A stretch of 64,000 nucleotides of DNA from Bacteroidaceae bacterium. Its GTDB lineage: Bacteria; Bacteroidota; Bacteroidia; Bacteroidales; Bacteroidaceae. Numbering within the stretch: position 1 is the stretch's first letter; the number at the start of each line of letters is the position of its first letter. Below, piece by piece: positions 19,832 to 27,096 of this stretch. The stretch covers positions 1 through 64,000 of the forward strand of contig JAKSLR010000014.1 of assembly GCA_024401095.1 (NCBI GenBank), read 5' to 3'. The position numbers were made by a program, and so were the translations under genes. A model generated the notes under the pieces. That model was not told the DNA's origin, ran no database searches, and saw only the letters and a program-made list of their open reading frames with translations.

Positions 19832-22800
19832 TCATTGTACCTTCATAACGACTGCAGTTCCATGCGCAGAGAATTCTGGAGCATAAGTACACTGAGCAGT
19901 AGGAATACCAGAATTATAGGTACCTTCAAGCCCGACGAAAAAGTCCTCAGTAATCTCATAGCTGCCTTTTGGCAAACGATCCATACAAAAACGACTTTCT
20001 GTATCTTTAACCATATAATAATAGCCTAAACCATTTCCCCACCGATAACCGGAAAGAGAGGCTGCAGGACTAAGACAAGCTGCACGTGGAAGATTAACCT
20101 CAACAAAGTCCATGTCTCTATCTGTCTTTAAGCGAATGAGTACACGAACTTTGTCGCCCACTTTCAATGTATTCAGTGCAACTGTTTCGTACTGCGATTT
20201 ATTATTCTTCACGACCTCACGCTGATACTCTACTTGCAATTTCAAGCCAGTATGCGGTTCTTCTTCGACCACGTCCTCTTGCTTAACCAACGATTTCACT
20301 GCAATGCTGGCCCATGCTACAGGAGAATCAGTAGCATCTTTCTTGAGATTCCAAGTCTTTGGCAATGAAGAGAAATCATCATAATTATAGGTCTGATGTA
20401 CAGTCTTATCCGTAGCCATGCTCAATGTCTCCTGTCCCGGATTCACGTTCAGAATGGCATACAAAGCATCTAAGGTTGCAGCTGAATTGTCCCATGCCTG
20501 TGTTCTTTTCTGATTCAGTATCCAGCGAATGTAATCGCTAAGTAACAACGACTTACGCAAAGGATCAGATTCTGTAGAAACTTGCAAGGAGGCTGGAGCA
20601 ACCTTGGCCAATCCTTCCACTACCATCGTTTGAGTTGGAATGCGATAATTTCTCCAGGAATACATAGCTTTAGGCGTATCATAATAACGTCCCAACTCCT
20701 CGGTATAAACAGAATAGCCCACTACTGAACGAATGAATTTCAACGCATCTTCTTCCTTCTTGTTCGCCTGAAGGACAATAGCTGCCATGGCTTTCTGATA
20801 AATGCTCAATGAAGAGATTTCTTTTGGCAAGGCATTCATAAAATACCTGCATACCTCTGCTACCTCCTTAGACCGTTCTTGTCCCCTCAAAGCATGCAAA
20901 TACAGGTAATGCAGCACATCGGTATTCAAGCCAGAATAATCCTTCTGCTTCTTTACAGATTTGTAATAAGACAACATATCTGTATCTAAATACTGCATGG
21001 AACGAGACACAATGCCATCGAAACGTTCTCTCTCAGGAACATGAATTCCAAGAGAAGCCAGACGTACAAAAGACTCCGTGAGCAATCGGGTAATGTAAGT
21101 AGAGGAACCCATGCCACAGAACCAAGCAAAGCCTCCATCTTCCTGTTGCAATTTACTCAATTGCTCTAAATATGATTTACATGTCAGAGAATCTGTAACC
21201 AACATGCCATTGTTTTCAAGTAAAGGCTGCTGGCTGACAATAGCCATAGAAAGGCACTTCGCATAGAACGACAAGGCCAGATCCACAGCATTCATATTTG
21301 ACTTCTGCTCTTTCGAGTTTGACAGATCTTTTACGACTTCCCAGATAGGGTTATTCACCACACTGACGGACAAGGAAGAAGTCTTATTCCATAACTTGCC
21401 ATTACCCATCATATTCTCCAAAGAAACCACTTGCTCTGGATGATTCAAGTAATAGGCACGAGTCTCTTCCAGCCAAATTTCATCGGAGAGCACAGGTAAT
21501 TCATGCTGTTCACCATCGGAATAATCTGAAGCGCTGGCATATACCTGGCAGATTGTTCCTCCTTCATAATCGGGAGCAGTAAATGGAACCAGAAACGTTT
21601 CGCTCTCCTTTACCTTGAACGGCATTTCCTTACGAACCAAGTCTTTTGTCAAGGTACTATCTTTGAGTACAAAAGTAAGCTTTCCAACCTGAGTAGAACC
21701 CGAAAAATTACGGATAGTAACAGGAAGGTTTACTTTATCACCCTTACGGATGAAACGCGGCATATTAGGGTGAACCTCAAAAGGTTGAATGATCTTCAAG
21801 TGTCTGTCTATGTCTGAGGAATAATCCATATCCTTAGTGTGTGCAAAGCCCATCAAGTGCCACTCGGTAATGCTTTGAGGCAACGTAAAATCCAGGGAGA
21901 CAACACCGCTTTCATCGGTACGCAACATCGGATAGAAGAAGGCTGTTTCCTGGAATTCTGTACGAAGGTTGACTGGTTCTGCTGATTCTTCAATTCTTCC
22001 TGTAGAAATCTGATACACTTCACCCTCAGCAGCATCATTCATCACCATAGGAGCAGCATTCTTTGAGACTCTGGCAGACAACATTTTCACTTCTTGGCGC
22101 ATGATGTTTGCCGTGAACAACGAGTTGTCAAATCTATCAAACAGACGTTCCAGATATTTGTAATGAGCCAATGCAGGAAATTCCATGTAACGAAATACTC
22201 TAGTATTACCGAATGATATGGCAGGAACATGGAAATTTCCGAACTGTCTCTGTATATAATTCCAATGATGACTGTAGATTCTATCCAGCGATGCATCATA
22301 CAGCACAGCCATGAGGTTAGCATCTGCAGGGAAACCTGAAGGAAGAGTAAGCTTCAACTTCCATTCCTCTTTCATTCCAGGCTGGGAAAAATCACGCACT
22401 GAAATCCATTCAGCTTTCAACTTTTTGTCAGGCTTAGGTACACTAAAGAACTTGTTCGCCGTATACACTTTTCCCTCTTGAGCCAGCAACAAAGAAACAG
22501 AAACTCCATCTTTGTAATTTTCCTTATATGGTATGTGCAACAAGGCCAGAGAATCACTCAACACGTAAGAGCCTCTCTCTACTCTACCCTTGGCATCATA
22601 GATATAATACTGTATGTAAGCATCTGACAGAGAGGATCCCAGTTGCAAGACTGCCTCATGATTACGGTCTATTTTGTCAGATTCTGCAAAGGTCCAAAGG
22701 TTGCTCCCTGGCAATGGAGTGCGATCTTCCATAGAAACCAAGGCAAACTCTTTGTCAAGTTTTAATGAATCGTATGCCACTTCCAACACATATCTGCCAG

Positions 22801-25228
22801 AGGCGAATGTCGCCAAAAAACTTGGAGTGTAAGGTGAACCAGAGGTTATAGTTCCTTCCCACACCTGTTTTTTCTCTCCCACAGTAAGTAATCTGGCACA
22901 GACTTCTAGCTTCTGATCCTCCCGTTCCAAATTGGTAAGGTGAATTGTCCAAGGCTGAATATTCTTCTTATTCATTTGGTTTTCAGCATCTATCCAGAAC
23001 AGATAAGGATTGTCAGCAATGGACAAATTAGTCACAGCCACATGCGTTTCCCCATCTTTCGACGTCACTGTCATCTCTACAGCAAAATCATAAAACAAAG
23101 AGTTTTTTTCAAGATTGGCAAAATGCTCAGGAAGGTTCAAAGTTACGGCATAATCTATTTCCCCCTTATCATCTGTATAAAGGGTATCTTGAGAGATGAC
23201 ATGCGAGTTACGATTTCTCCATAGCCACTTCTCAAAACAGGTAGTTTTTAAGACAACCTTAGCTCTCTGTACAGGTGCATCAGTAAAAGTCAGGGCCTTT
23301 CCTTTCAAGGTAACAACATCTCCCTTTTTATAGGACACCGTCACAGGCTCCCATCTCACATCATAGGTAGGACGTTTATACTCTTCAACCTTGAAACTGA
23401 TAGACTTTCCTTCATTTGTCCACAGTTGATATGTTCCTGGTTCACAATCACTTGGTAAGGTAAATTTACCACAAGCCACACCGTAATCATCGGTTTTAAG
23501 AGAATCTTTCTTCAAATCCTTCCTGCGACGCATCTCCCTCAAGGAAATTATTACTTCATGCTGAGGTACTACTTTTGAGAAATCTCTGTCGCTCTCACTA
23601 ACCAAAAGTGAATATTCCACTACTTGACCCGGACGATAGATAGAACGATCTGTAAAAAACTGCACAGACTGTTGCTTTACATTATTAATATCAGAGAAAA
23701 ATGACTCATTTAGTCTGATTATGCTACTTTTATCACCGTCTTTCTCTACAGCCCAATACTGCTGGAACCTTTTTTCTGGTATCTCATTCAAGAAAATACC
23801 TTGTTCATCGGTCTTGAAAGTAGCAATTTTCACATAAGAGTCCCTATTGTTCTTCAATTCATACCGGTGTACTTGAGCAAAGGCAACCGGCTTACCTGTC
23901 CAAGAGTCTAAAATCAGAATTTCATTTTTCTTATTGGCAACAGGTATATTTGTAACCATCCATTTAGATACCACTACAGGTAAATAGGCCTTCTTTGCTT
24001 TGGCTGCAGGATATTCCGAACAAGCCAACGGAGCTATCTCCACTAGATACACACCCGGAACTGTTGGAGCAACTACAGAGAAAGAGGAGTCTTGACGATC
24101 AAAAGCCTTATCGGATATTTTACATGTCAGTTTGTTGACAACTGAAGCTGATTCTTTAATGAGCTTTGCCAAATAAACATCTTCCTGAAAGGACTGCTCA
24201 TAAAATTTACGCTCCAGATAATGCGCATCGTCTACTTTTCGCCAACTCACCTGCACGGAAGATACATTGAATACAGAGTAGCTTACAGAGAATGATTTGC
24301 CCGGATAAGCCGTGGCAGATGCATGAAAGCTAGCATTTGGGCACACCAACCCCTCCAAAGAAGATTTCAACTCATCAATTCTTTCATACTTCGGATACTT
24401 AGCGATGGCATTCTTCAATCTAGCCATGGCTTCCAGCAAAGGTTCTTCAGAAGCCAGTCGATTCTCCACCTCCGCGCACAAAGGGAGGTCATTATATTCT
24501 TCTACCAAAGCATTTAAGAACTGCTTCCTAAAGGTAGGCAAAGAAAATACGAAACGCTGCTCATCCCATTCCAAAGCTACAGACAATGCTGCTTGTCTGT
24601 TTTTCTGAGCTTTATAAAGAGCCATATCACGCACCAGCACGTCTTTTATCCAAGAATAATCACGATATTTCCAAGCATTTGACTCCAATGTGGTACGAAA
24701 TAACGATAGCAAATCATGATTATACACCCTGCTCGCATTACCCGGAAGAACAAGAGGTTTGTAATTCAATGCAGAAGTAGAAGACAACTGCTGCAACAAA
24801 GTCTCGTCTTTTTCCTCCAGAGCAAAAGCTTTCTTCAGATAAAGCTCCGCATCTGTATCTGTTACCAAGCCATACAGGAAATAAATGACCGAGCGATCTA
24901 CCTTATTTTGGCTTGTTTCTGCCATTTCCAGCAGTTCTTTTTTATCTGCAACAAGACTATCGGGGCTGACATTCTTTCTCCAAGCCATGCGAGTAAGGTA
25001 TGCCCGAAGCATTTCTGGCACATGCTTTTGCTTTTTGGCCAGTTCATACAACTTGCCAGATTGGAGAATAACTTCCTGCGGATTATCTTCTTGCACCGCA
25101 CGCTCCACCTTTTTCCACAAGAAATCCAGCGATTGGCCAGACACTGTGACATCGACCAATAATGACATCATCAATAAAAACAGTTTCAATAAGTAGTTAA
25201 AGTTTCCGTTATGTTTCATACCTTTCAT
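19832..25228 (-). CDS. Alpha-2-macroglobulin-family protein without thioester Cys
   Basis: The product is very large (1798 residues) and exported, with a signal peptide in about 1-33 and no lipobox Cys. The middle holds macroglobulin domains (VQFFTDRSIYRPGQVVEYS is the MG2 signature), then an A2M domain with TEWHLMGFAHTKD, and a C-terminal helical thioester-like domain (LQQEDGGFAWFCGM). Where bait-and-trap members carry Cys-x-Glu-Gln, this protein appears to read SKEQ (S1305-Q1308), so it likely cannot bond covalently to its target. Such proteins are thought to trap proteases at the surface. An in-frame ATG at 25219 is an alternative start. Confidence 0.88.
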   Translation of the reverse strand: MKGMKHNGNFNYLLKLFLLMMSLLVDVTVSGQSLDFLWKKVERAVQEDNPQEVILQSGKLYELAKKQKHVPEMLRAYLTRMAWRKNVSPDSLVADKKELLEMAETSQNKVDRSVIYFLYGLVTDTDAELYLKKAFALEEKDETLLQQLSSTSALNYKPLVLPGNASRVYNHDLLSLFRTTLESNAWKYRDYSWIKDVLVRDMALYKAQKNRQAALSVALEWDEQRFVFSLPTFRKQFLNALVEEYNDLPLCAEVENRLASEEPLLEAMARLKNAIAKYPKYERIDELKSSLEGLVCPNASFHASATAYPGKSFSVSYSVFNVSSVQVSWRKVDDAHYLERKFYEQSFQEDVYLAKLIKESASVVNKLTCKISDKAFDRQDSSFSVVAPTVPGVYLVEIAPLACSEYPAAKAKKAYLPVVVSKWMVTNIPVANKKNEILILDSWTGKPVAFAQVHRYELKNNRDSYVKIATFKTDEQGIFLNEIPEKRFQQYWAVEKDGDKSSIIRLNESFFSDINNVKQQSVQFFTDRSIYRPGQVVEYSLLVSESDRDFSKVVPQHEVIISLREMRRRKDLKKDSLKTDDYGVACGKFTLPSDCEPGTYQLWTNEGKSISFKVEEYKRPTYDVRWEPVTVSYKKGDVVTLKGKALTFTDAPVQRAKVVLKTTCFEKWLWRNRNSHVISQDTLYTDDKGEIDYAVTLNLPEHFANLEKNSLFYDFAVEMTVTSKDGETHVAVTNLSIADNPYLFWIDAENQMNKKNIQPWTIHLTNLEREDQKLEVCARLLTVGEKKQVWEGTITSGSPYTPSFLATFASGRYVLEVAYDSLKLDKEFALVSMEDRTPLPGSNLWTFAESDKIDRNHEAVLQLGSSLSDAYIQYYIYDAKGRVERGSYVLSDSLALLHIPYKENYKDGVSVSLLLAQEGKVYTANKFFSVPKPDKKLKAEWISVRDFSQPGMKEEWKLKLTLPSGFPADANLMAVLYDASLDRIYSHHWNYIQRQFGNFHVPAISFGNTRVFRYMEFPALAHYKYLERLFDRFDNSLFTANIMRQEVKMLSARVSKNAAPMVMNDAAEGEVYQISTGRIEESAEPVNLRTEFQETAFFYPMLRTDESGVVSLDFTLPQSITEWHLMGFAHTKDMDYSSDIDRHLKIIQPFEVHPNMPRFIRKGDKVNLPVTIRNFSGSTQVGKLTFVLKDSTLTKDLVRKEMPFKVKESETFLVPFTAPDYEGGTICQVYASASDYSDGEQHELPVLSDEIWLEETRAYYLNHPEQVVSLENMMGNGKLWNKTSSLSVSVVNNPIWEVVKDLSNSKEQKSNMNAVDLALSFYAKCLSMAIVSQQPLLENNGMLVTDSLTCKSYLEQLSKLQQEDGGFAWFCGMGSSTYITRLLTESFVRLASLGIHVPERERFDGIVSRSMQYLDTDMLSYYKSVKKQKDYSGLNTDVLHYLYLHALRGQERSKEVAEVCRYFMNALPKEISSLSIYQKAMAAIVLQANKKEEDALKFIRSVVGYSVYTEELGRYYDTPKAMYSWRNYRIPTQTMVVEGLAKVAPASLQVSTESDPLRKSLLLSDYIRWILNQKRTQAWDNSAATLDALYAILNVNPGQETLSMATDKTVHQTYNYDDFSSLPKTWNLKKDATDSPVAWASIAVKSLVKQEDVVEEEPHTGLKLQVEYQREVVKNNKSQYETVALNTLKVGDKVRVLIRLKTDRDMDFVEVNLPRAACLSPAASLSGYRWGNGLGYYYMVKDTESRFCMDRLPKGSYEITEDFFVGLEGTYNSGIPTAQCTYAPEFSAHGTAVVMKVQ

Positions 25229-25240
25229 GTATTTACGTAT

Positions 25241-25249
25241 GCAAAGATA
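25241..25249 (-). promoter_or_regulatory. Promoter -7 box for the A2M-like gene
   Basis: TATCTTTGC on the reverse strand, 12 bases before the ATG at 25228 and 21 before that at 25219. The short distance slightly favours the second. Confidence 0.72.
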
Positions 25250-25363
25250 GAAGAAAAGTGTTTGAATGAAGATGAAAAGCGTTCACTTTTAGTTCACAAT
25301 TAACGTCCATTGACTATCAATAACTTTAAATAATAGTTTACAAAAGATTCACACGATACAAAT

Positions 25364-25396
25364 AAAAAAACATCCCCCACTTCACAGCGAAGGATG
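25364..25396 (-). terminator. Intrinsic terminator of the candidate small RNA
   Basis: CATCC-TTC pairs with GAA-(five-base bulge)-GGATG on the reverse strand around GCTGT, followed directly by seven T residues. Confidence 0.7.
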
Positions 25397-25476
25397 CCCA
25401 CCAATAAAAGGAAACTAACTCTCTCTTGAAACTTATTCTAAGTTTTTGATATACATGTCATACTGACACCATATCA
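25364..25476 (-). ncRNA. Candidate free-standing small RNA, about 113 nt
   Basis: A strong promoter (CTTG at -33, 20-bp spacer, TATCTTTG at 25482-25489) points into a gap without an open frame. The predicted RNA begins with a hairpin at 25476-25447 (TGATAT and TGTCA arms with a small internal loop), has a second at 25445-25429 (AAACTTA with TAAGTTT, GAA loop), and ends in a stem CATCC/GGATG with inner TTC/GAA (25396-25371) followed by seven T residues (25370-25364). So promoter, structured body and intrinsic terminator are all present. I cannot assign it to a known RNA family. Confidence 0.65.
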
Positions 25477-25481
25477 TGTGA

Positions 25482-25512
25482 CAAAGATATAATGTTTTCT
25501 TTTCCGATACAA
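25482..25512 (-). promoter_or_regulatory. Promoter of the candidate small RNA
   Basis: Reverse strand: TTG at 25512-25510, 20-base spacer, TATCTTTG at 25489-25482. Spacing and both boxes fit the Bacteroidota housekeeping consensus. Confidence 0.7.
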
Positions 25513-25564
25513 GAAAAAAGAACAAAAATAAACGTTCTTTAACATTATAATGACGTTCTCAAAT

Positions 25565-25615
25565 AAAAAACTTATTCCCCAGTTAGAGGAAAAAATCTCA
25601 CTAACCGGGGAATAA
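25565..25615 (-). terminator. Intrinsic terminator of pepD
   Basis: A 9-bp arm (25572-25580 with 25607-25615), one A/C mismatch and a further 5-bp arm (25582-25586 with 25601-25605) form a long stem. A T-rich tract follows on the reverse strand. Confidence 0.8.
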
Positions 25616-25635
25616 ATAGTTCTAAGTATTAGGTC

Positions 25636-27096
25636 TTATTTTTCTGGGATCTGCTCCAAGGTAGCAGTGAGCAACTTCCAGTACTTCTCAACAGAAGGGA
25701 TAAAGCAACGCTCCTGTGGGGTGTGAGGACTACGCAATGTAGGACCGAATGACACCATATCAAGGCCAGGCATTACTGCACCAATGATACCACACTCCAA
25801 ACCTGCATGTACCACAACAATCTTGCAAGGAGTGCCAAACAACTGTTCATAGCTGTCTGCCATAGCCTTTACGATTGGAGATTTTGTATCTGGCTGCCAA
25901 CCACTGTATGAGCCGCTCATTGTCACCTTCATGCCAGCCATATTGAAACAGCATTCCAAAGATGTAGCCAAATACTCCTTCATGCTTTCACTTGAACTTC
26001 TTGCCAGAATCTGGATAGAAGCCTCACCACCCTCAATATTGATAATAGCCAAATTGCTAGATGTTTCAACGATATTTGGAATAGTAGGGATATAGCGGCA
26101 CACACCATTCTGGCATGCAAAAATTGCGTTTACAAGATTGTCTGCAATCTCCTGTGGTACTTCTTTCTCTGGGAGTGCACATTCTTCTGCAAACATCTCA
26201 AATTCAGAAGTCTCAATATCCTTGTATTCTTCCTTGAATTCATTGTAGCAATAAGAAACCAAATCCATCAGATCTGTCTTATTCTCTGCAGGAATAGTTA
26301 AGACTACAGCGCACTCACGAGGAATGGCATTACGCATATTTCCACCATGCCAGCTTGCCAGACATGCATCATCATCTGTGATGGCAGCGCGTACAACACG
26401 TGCCATAAGCTTATTGGCATTTGCACGACCACAGCTGATTTCCAAACCAGAGTGACCACCAAGCAAACCACGGATTACAATCTTTACTGCAACATCTTCC
26501 TTATCTGTATCGACTTCCTTGTATCCCAAAGATGCAGAAATATCAATACCACCAGCACAACCAATGGTAAGTTCACCTTCGTCTTCTGTATCCAAATTCA
26601 ACAAGATAGAACCACTCAGTTCTCCTGCCTTTAAGCCAAAAGCACCATACATACCGGTTTCTTCATCCGCAGTAATCAAAGCCTCCAATGGACCGTGTTT
26701 CAAATCTTTTGATTCCATGATAGCCATGATAGATGCAACACCGATACCATCATCAGCACCCAATGTTGTGCCTTCTGCTTTCAGCCAATCTCCATCAACA
26801 TAAGTCTTTATTGGATCATTTTCAAAATCATGACCACGGCCTTCTACCTGCTGAGGAACCATATCCATGTGAGCCTGAAGAATAGCAGTCTGCTTGTTCT
26901 CCATGCCTGGAGTTGCAGGCTTACGCATGATGATATTACCACTTTCATCCATTTCTGCATCGACACCAGCATCTTTTGCCCATTTCAGCAATGCTGCCTG
27001 AACTTTTTCGAGATGACCTGACGGACGAGGTATCTCTGTCAGAAACTCAAAATTCTTGAAAATTACTCTTGGAGATAAATCTTTAATTGTAGCCAT
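25636..27096 (-). CDS. pepD: Aminoacyl-histidine dipeptidase (M20 family)
   Basis: The 486-residue cytosolic dizinc enzyme cleaves Xaa-His dipeptides and others. Metal and catalytic motifs are QAHMDMVPQ, TLGADDGIG, ADEETGMYGA and VHAGLECGIIG. The insertion of a dimerisation lid domain (about 210-390) is standard for PepD. Its ATG lies 12 bp after the flippase-like gene, so they share a transcript. Confidence 0.94.
   Translation of the reverse strand: MATIKDLSPRVIFKNFEFLTEIPRPSGHLEKVQAALLKWAKDAGVDAEMDESGNIIMRKPATPGMENKQTAILQAHMDMVPQQVEGRGHDFENDPIKTYVDGDWLKAEGTTLGADDGIGVASIMAIMESKDLKHGPLEALITADEETGMYGAFGLKAGELSGSILLNLDTEDEGELTIGCAGGIDISASLGYKEVDTDKEDVAVKIVIRGLLGGHSGLEISCGRANANKLMARVVRAAITDDDACLASWHGGNMRNAIPRECAVVLTIPAENKTDLMDLVSYCYNEFKEEYKDIETSEFEMFAEECALPEKEVPQEIADNLVNAIFACQNGVCRYIPTIPNIVETSSNLAIINIEGGEASIQILARSSSESMKEYLATSLECCFNMAGMKVTMSGSYSGWQPDTKSPIVKAMADSYEQLFGTPCKIVVVHAGLECGIIGAVMPGLDMVSFGPTLRSPHTPQERCFIPSVEKYWKLLTATLEQIPEK

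Follow-up and report, generated by a model that had tools for sequence, protein, structure and literature searches.

The question raised by this locus is whether the 407-bp gap that separates pepD from an alpha-2-macroglobulin-family (A2M) gene on the minus strand contains an independent small RNA (sRNA) gene and, if so, on which partner this RNA may act. The window, that is the whole stretch of DNA analysed, covers 64,000 nucleotides from a gut Bacteroidaceae bacterium (assembly GCA_024401095.1, contig JAKSLR010000014.1), the genome of which is labelled G000 among the six species of its genus. A sequence-only reading of the window had proposed in this gap a new sRNA with its own promoter and terminator, three hairpins, and a stretch available for pairing with other transcripts. 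The relevant features are the following.

25364..25477, minus strand: candidate sRNA of about 113 nt (its start deduced from the -7 box and its end from the terminator)
25482..25512, minus strand: promoter of the Bacteroidota sigma-ABfr type, with TTG at 25512-25510, a 20-nt spacer, and TATCTTTG at 25489-25482 (sequence and homologues)
25449..25476, minus strand: 5' hairpin of variable sequence (GATATGGTGTCA...TGACATGTATATC; fold -7.9 kcal/mol, z -1.9)
25400..25436, minus strand: invariant core AUAAGUUUCAAGAGAGAGUUAGUUUCCUUUUAUUGGU, the proposed pairing region (identity across species)
25403..25425, minus strand: 23-nt portion of the core, a perfect complement of the FopS-bearing transcript in G002 (12-15 nt in G000, G004, and G005)
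25364..25401, minus strand: intrinsic terminator, a 14-pair hairpin with a GNRA loop followed by T7 (kept in homologues)
25570..25617, minus strand: separate terminator of pepD (17-bp inverted repeat and T-run)
25636..27096, minus strand: pepD, beta-Ala-His/aminoacyl-histidine dipeptidase, the upstream gene (TIGR01893, 550 bits against a cut-off of 344)
19832..25228, minus strand: A2M-family gene of 1798 aa, the downstream gene (PF00207, PF17973, PF01835)

The promoter and the coordinates had been called correctly in every element, and the combination of TANNTTTG at -7 with TTG or TTTG at -33 corresponds to the Bacteroidota sigma-ABfr promoter (PMC7366714). For the pattern TTG-N20-TANNTTTG the window yields 5 occurrences where 1.4 would be expected; with so modest an enrichment of the bare pattern, little weight can be given to the promoter match by itself. 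At the other end of the unit the stem 25399-25368 with its T7 is the strongest terminator-like site between 24000 and 27000 (14 pairs), while folding of 120 nt of the minus strand gives -35.3 kcal/mol (z -3.8), a value equalled by none of 200 shuffles. From the upstream side the sRNA is insulated by the terminator of pepD. In agreement with the claim that no open frame of note exists here, no ORF of at least 50 aa was found on either strand of 25229-25635, and the short frames within the sRNA are not conserved among the homologues compared. Frames of 13-14 aa that end at the core in G000, G002, and G005 were considered as a leader peptide and rejected, being absent, by eye, from G004 and G001.

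The genus sample includes six Bacteroidaceae species represented by draft assemblies of 72-94% completeness, and a DNA search detected six copies of the sRNA in five of them, the window's own included. In G002, G004, and G005 the sRNA is located downstream of pepD in the same orientation as in the window; the pepD locus of G001 has no copy, and two copies are found in that species at unrelated loci beside unrelated genes. No copy was found in G003 by either the DNA search or the covariance model R1, which comprises core and terminator, and a tRNA was read from the sequence after pepD there. In G004 (G004:C180; L141:2102-3431) the A2M gene beside pepD is absent, and the sRNA and the gene that follows are retained.

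All six homologues, the two non-syntenic copies included, possess TTG, exactly 20 nt, and TANNTTTG. The 37-nt core is identical to that of the window at 37/37 positions in G002, G004, and G005 and at 36/37 in both G001 copies, to be compared with the neutral value of 45-50% identity at fourfold-degenerate sites of pepD, with 9-12 of 20 positions (about 50%) in the promoter spacer of syntenic copies, and with about 30-40% in the downstream flank. According to our own arithmetic the chance of 37/37 at a neutral identity of 48% is about 1e-12 for a single comparison. As judged from these alignments, the core is held invariant in a genus with nearly saturated neutral sites.

The predicted fold is conserved in one part only. 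Terminator pairs are kept in 6/6 homologues (100% of cells paired), with 2 pairs changed on both sides; 56% of cells are paired in hairpin 1, and 71% in hairpin 2, which overlaps the invariant core and shows zero compensatory changes. Different 5' hairpins are formed in G000, G004, and, less clearly, G002, and G005 barely folds one. Thus, of the three hairpins described earlier the last one stood as a conserved intrinsic terminator with T7, while hairpins 1 and 2 did not hold across species, and the compensatory change that was to be sought in related genomes is seen in the terminator hairpin only.

The unit possesses the features by which bacterial intergenic sRNAs are generally recognised, namely its own promoter and terminator and conservation between species without a conserved ORF. 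Since each of the six copies, including the two at unrelated loci, combines promoter, core, and terminator, an autonomous sRNA gene is indicated, and 25364-25477 on the minus strand is regarded as an independent gene for a predicted sRNA of about 113 nt, as had been proposed. The explanation that no independent sRNA exists and that the element is a terminator or attenuator remnant or the leader of the A2M gene would draw on the modest enrichment of the promoter motif; however, it is hardly credible given that the sRNA terminates 136 nt ahead of the A2M start codon, is kept in G004 although the A2M gene is absent, adjoins unrelated genes in two G001 copies, and carries an invariant core.

Outside the genus only weak matches were obtained. 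When the R1 model was run on 399 family genomes it scored 102-110 bits within the genus, and no match in the other genomes exceeded 45 bits; the weaker matches in other genera were rejected, as mainly the terminator was aligned in the ten inspected, and some are FopS RNAs with a similar terminator. The FopS seeds of genus g10 (L118:1501-1578, L123:1501-1573) have terminators similar enough to that of the sRNA to be matched by this model, and terminator loops of the type CU-GNGA-AG recur across the family. In a collection of 84,980 species, which may omit the window's own genome, the exact 20-nt core was present in the MAGs RUG207, UBA4293, S28M_St_metabat_119, and Candidatus Minthousia equi and nowhere else; it occurs twice in UBA4293, one occurrence being the antisense partner site, and twice in Candidatus Minthousia equi. 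Searches of plasmid and viral contigs gave no match.

It had also been considered that the RNA could belong to a known family. At gathering score the Rfam search returned two tRNAs in the window and nothing else, which does not bear out such membership and is consistent, together with the six conserved copies, with a new sRNA. Permissive matches to DUF3800-I, PyrR, ctRNA, and mir-2300 were rejected as chance or as the terminator of pepD. The DUF3800-I RNA (RF02969) gave a full-length but weak match with the window copy (28.6 bits, cut-off 44.2), and because the homologues L009-L013 give none at the thresholds used this match is ascribed to chance.

More attention is deserved by MasB (BTnc201; RF04177), an sRNA of Bacteroides of about 100 nt with BT_1675 mRNA as reported target (PMC10994844), which shares with the present sRNA its approximate length and the same order of 5' hairpin, U-rich unpaired linker, and terminator. 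With the MasB model, matches to the sRNA locus or to homologous loci were obtained in four species (22.5-31 bits, E 0.0015-0.17), so that a strongly diverged member of the MasB family could be suspected. Yet the gathering score of 105 is far above the 22.5 bits of the window and the 31 bits reached at best by the homologues, and strong MasB matches within the family of Bacteroidaceae fall in a different genus. The MasB linker GUGUUUGUUUUGUUUGUGUGU, which holds one mapped target-pairing site (PMC10994844), is absent from the sRNA copies aligned, where the linker is GAGAGAGUUAGUUUCCUUUUAUUGG, and it is terminator and composition that carry the alignment. Membership in the MasB family is therefore considered very improbable. 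In another genus an unannotated sRNA-like unit was observed (G097:C7:190905-190980, minus strand; L044:1501-1576) that scores 30.4 bits with MasB and includes a TANNTTTG promoter, a U/G-rich linker, and a terminator GATACTCC...GGGAGTATC with a T-run.

The FopS family (RF04319; PMC11697453) and GibS resemble the sRNA as RNAs of Bacteroidota that have an intrinsic terminator and a single-stranded region for pairing, and the TANNTTTG promoter is also present in FopS sRNAs. The difference is that the sRNA does not possess their seed GUGUUUUUCAU; its complementarity is to sequence that precedes this seed in FopS-bearing transcripts. The R1 seed, GUGUUUUUCAUNGUAUUA, by which FopS is recognised at its 5' end, was not found in the sRNA or elsewhere in the window at up to 2 mismatches, and the sole match with 3 mismatches is located outside the sRNA and is at chance level. 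On this sequence evidence the sRNA represents an uncatalogued family of ordinary kind with an unusually specific candidate partner.

This partner emerged from the search of G002, where one extra core match, 23/23 nt at G002:C18, has the opposite sense relative to the promoter there. Its interpretation as a second sRNA copy was rejected, as promoter and terminator are on the opposite strand. Alignment of G002:C18 with G005:C10 revealed a conserved second transcript, which consists in order of a promoter with GGGAAATTCCCC-type repeats, the core complement, an AU-rich stretch, GUUUGUGUGUUUUUCAUGGUAUUAUUUU, and a terminator. Used as a query, it identified its 3' element in G000:C42 and G004:C13, as well as in relatives without the site. 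The G000 and G004 loci resemble each other in their neighbouring genes and lack synteny with the G002/G005 locus; both were located via the FopS element and not via the pairing site, and both then turned out to carry core complements.

The exact 18-nt FopS seed is present in G000:C42, G002:C18, G004:C13, G005:C10, and G003:C79. The Rfam FopS model gave 49.6, 46.5, and 43.4 bits for the partners in G005, G002, and G004, respectively (E 8e-5 to 1e-3), and no match to the G000 transcript; because these values are below the gathering score of 56 the partners are FopS-like by seed and are not formal members of the family. The sole passing copy, with 68.9 bits, belongs to G003, starts at the seed, and has no pairing site, and a second FopS-like transcript of G005 (G005:C14) is also without the site. 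In B. thetaiotaomicron 14 FopS sRNAs of about 65-70 nt are described, one derived from a 3' UTR; they pair near start codons and repress SusC-type transporters, and are antagonised by the RbpB protein (PMC11697453). The partners in G002, G004, and G005 are longer, with a 5' extension, and that in G000 has an upstream ORF of a small lipoprotein. As an observation in its own right, the FopS-like sRNAs at G000:C42:5180-5650 (L087:1241-1700), L093, L084, and L083, with exact seed, scores below the Rfam cut-off, and either a 5' extension or fusion to the mRNA of a 63-aa histidine-rich lipoprotein (MKKILFALACVGLSLSLSSCFGPELWDD...), may represent a new FopS subtype.

In each of the four species in which both RNAs were found, the core and the FopS-bearing transcript share 12-23 contiguous Watson-Crick pairs, so that complementarity to an sRNA transcript is extended and kept across species, as is looked for in a sponge. 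Pairing covers 23/23 nt in G002 and has 1 mismatch in G005; the 12-mer ATAAAAGGAAAC occurs exactly twice per genome in G000 and G004, once antisense to the sRNA and once in the FopS-bearing transcript. In G000 two blocks pair separately, one of 12 nt with Watson-Crick pairs throughout and one of 14 nt that includes one G-U, and the site there forms part of the small lipoprotein mRNA's 3' UTR. The site is upstream of the FopS seed and not inside it. The stretch 25397-25428, put forward earlier for pairing, proved to be mostly within the invariant core and to contain the complementary sequence.

The predicted duplexes reach -32.8 (G000), -36.9 (G002), -32.4 (G005), and -31.1 kcal/mol (G004) by RNAduplex, which ignores accessibility, this entering the co-fold runs only. 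None of 500 dinucleotide shuffles was equal in any of the four species, at most 2 of 847 window segments reach such energies, and elsewhere in the window neither strand offers 12 or more consecutive Watson-Crick pairs with the core. In co-folds of the full RNAs the complex is preferred by 19-27 kcal/mol, while with shuffled partners the mean gain is 6-8 kcal/mol. The species G003 has a FopS without the site and no sRNA copy; in G001 (84% complete assembly), with its two sRNA copies, no FopS partner was found.

On the basis of this complementarity we consider it fairly probable that the sRNA acts in trans on FopS-bearing precursors, either sponging them or guiding their processing; its transcription, its pairing in the cell, and the consequence and direction of its regulation are what we infer. 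In transcripts ending in a FopS-type sRNA (seed GUGUUUUUCAUGGUAUUA), the core would pair with what lies upstream, either a 5' extension or a 3' UTR, and the precursor would then be cleaved in RNase III fashion within the long duplex, or sequestered or destabilised. A duplex of 15-25 bp is a natural substrate of RNase III. Cleavage could strip the extension, releasing or destroying the FopS part, or the duplex could tie FopS up, and the supply of FopS sRNAs, which repress SusC-type glycan transporters, would change as a result. More tentatively, the sRNA may be a dedicated anti-FopS RNA conserved in the genus and maintained by selection for pairing with FopS precursors, whether 5'-extended or in a 3' UTR, and for control of FopS output.

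A trans-acting sRNA with mainly mRNA targets, comparable to MasB, GibS, and BatR, for which the FopS transcripts are titrating decoys or one target among others, seems less likely, though several facts speak in its favour: a single partner would not call for a core so invariant, G001 retains two copies without a detected FopS partner, and the lipoprotein mRNA (63 aa) whose 3' UTR holds the G000 site has a promoter of its own that looks regulated. Against it, no near-full core complement other than the FopS-bearing transcripts was found in the six genomes, and the pairing region is not enriched for start-codon targeting, binding at the start codons of window genes with -9.5 kcal/mol versus -10.1 at random places. 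The excess invariance of the core nevertheless implies that additional targets of the sRNA probably exist beside the favoured FopS precursors.

Enterobacterial sRNA sponges or anti-sRNAs, such as SroC, pair with another sRNA or its precursor. The proposed RNA-RNA pairing is of the same kind, while the present sRNA is unrelated in sequence, has its site upstream of the FopS seed, and is known from sequence alone. No sRNA sponge acting on FopS was described in the literature searched, and the word "sponge" does not occur in PMC11697453. The locus thus adds to Bacteroidales an uncatalogued sRNA family, found from sequence and backed by very strong conservation, and supplies for it a specific candidate partner, the FopS-bearing transcripts. 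If the proposal is true, the sRNA would be a second FopS antagonist beside RbpB, or a maturation factor, and as a regulator of regulators would place polysaccharide utilisation under a further, RNA-on-RNA level of control; pairing with FopS precursors makes the control of FopS supply a directly testable question.

Two further observations concern the surroundings of FopS-like RNAs. Repeats of the GGGAAATTCCCC/TTTTCCCTTGC type directly upstream of TANNTTTG mark a promoter region that recurs at several loci in each of most genomes of the genus (L053:7471-7545, and about 1501-1590 in L056, L057, L058, L060, L062, and L066), where it precedes FopS-like RNAs and genes of small secreted proteins, and these loci look like the regulon of one putative transcription factor. 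At G000:C3:67384-67423 (minus strand; L079) a promoter is followed by a long leader with AGGTTTTTCATATAGGTTTTTGTTTAGG/GGTTAATAAAAGATTG repeats resembling the sequence downstream of FopS, which is possibly a leader or a repeat-bearing RNA.
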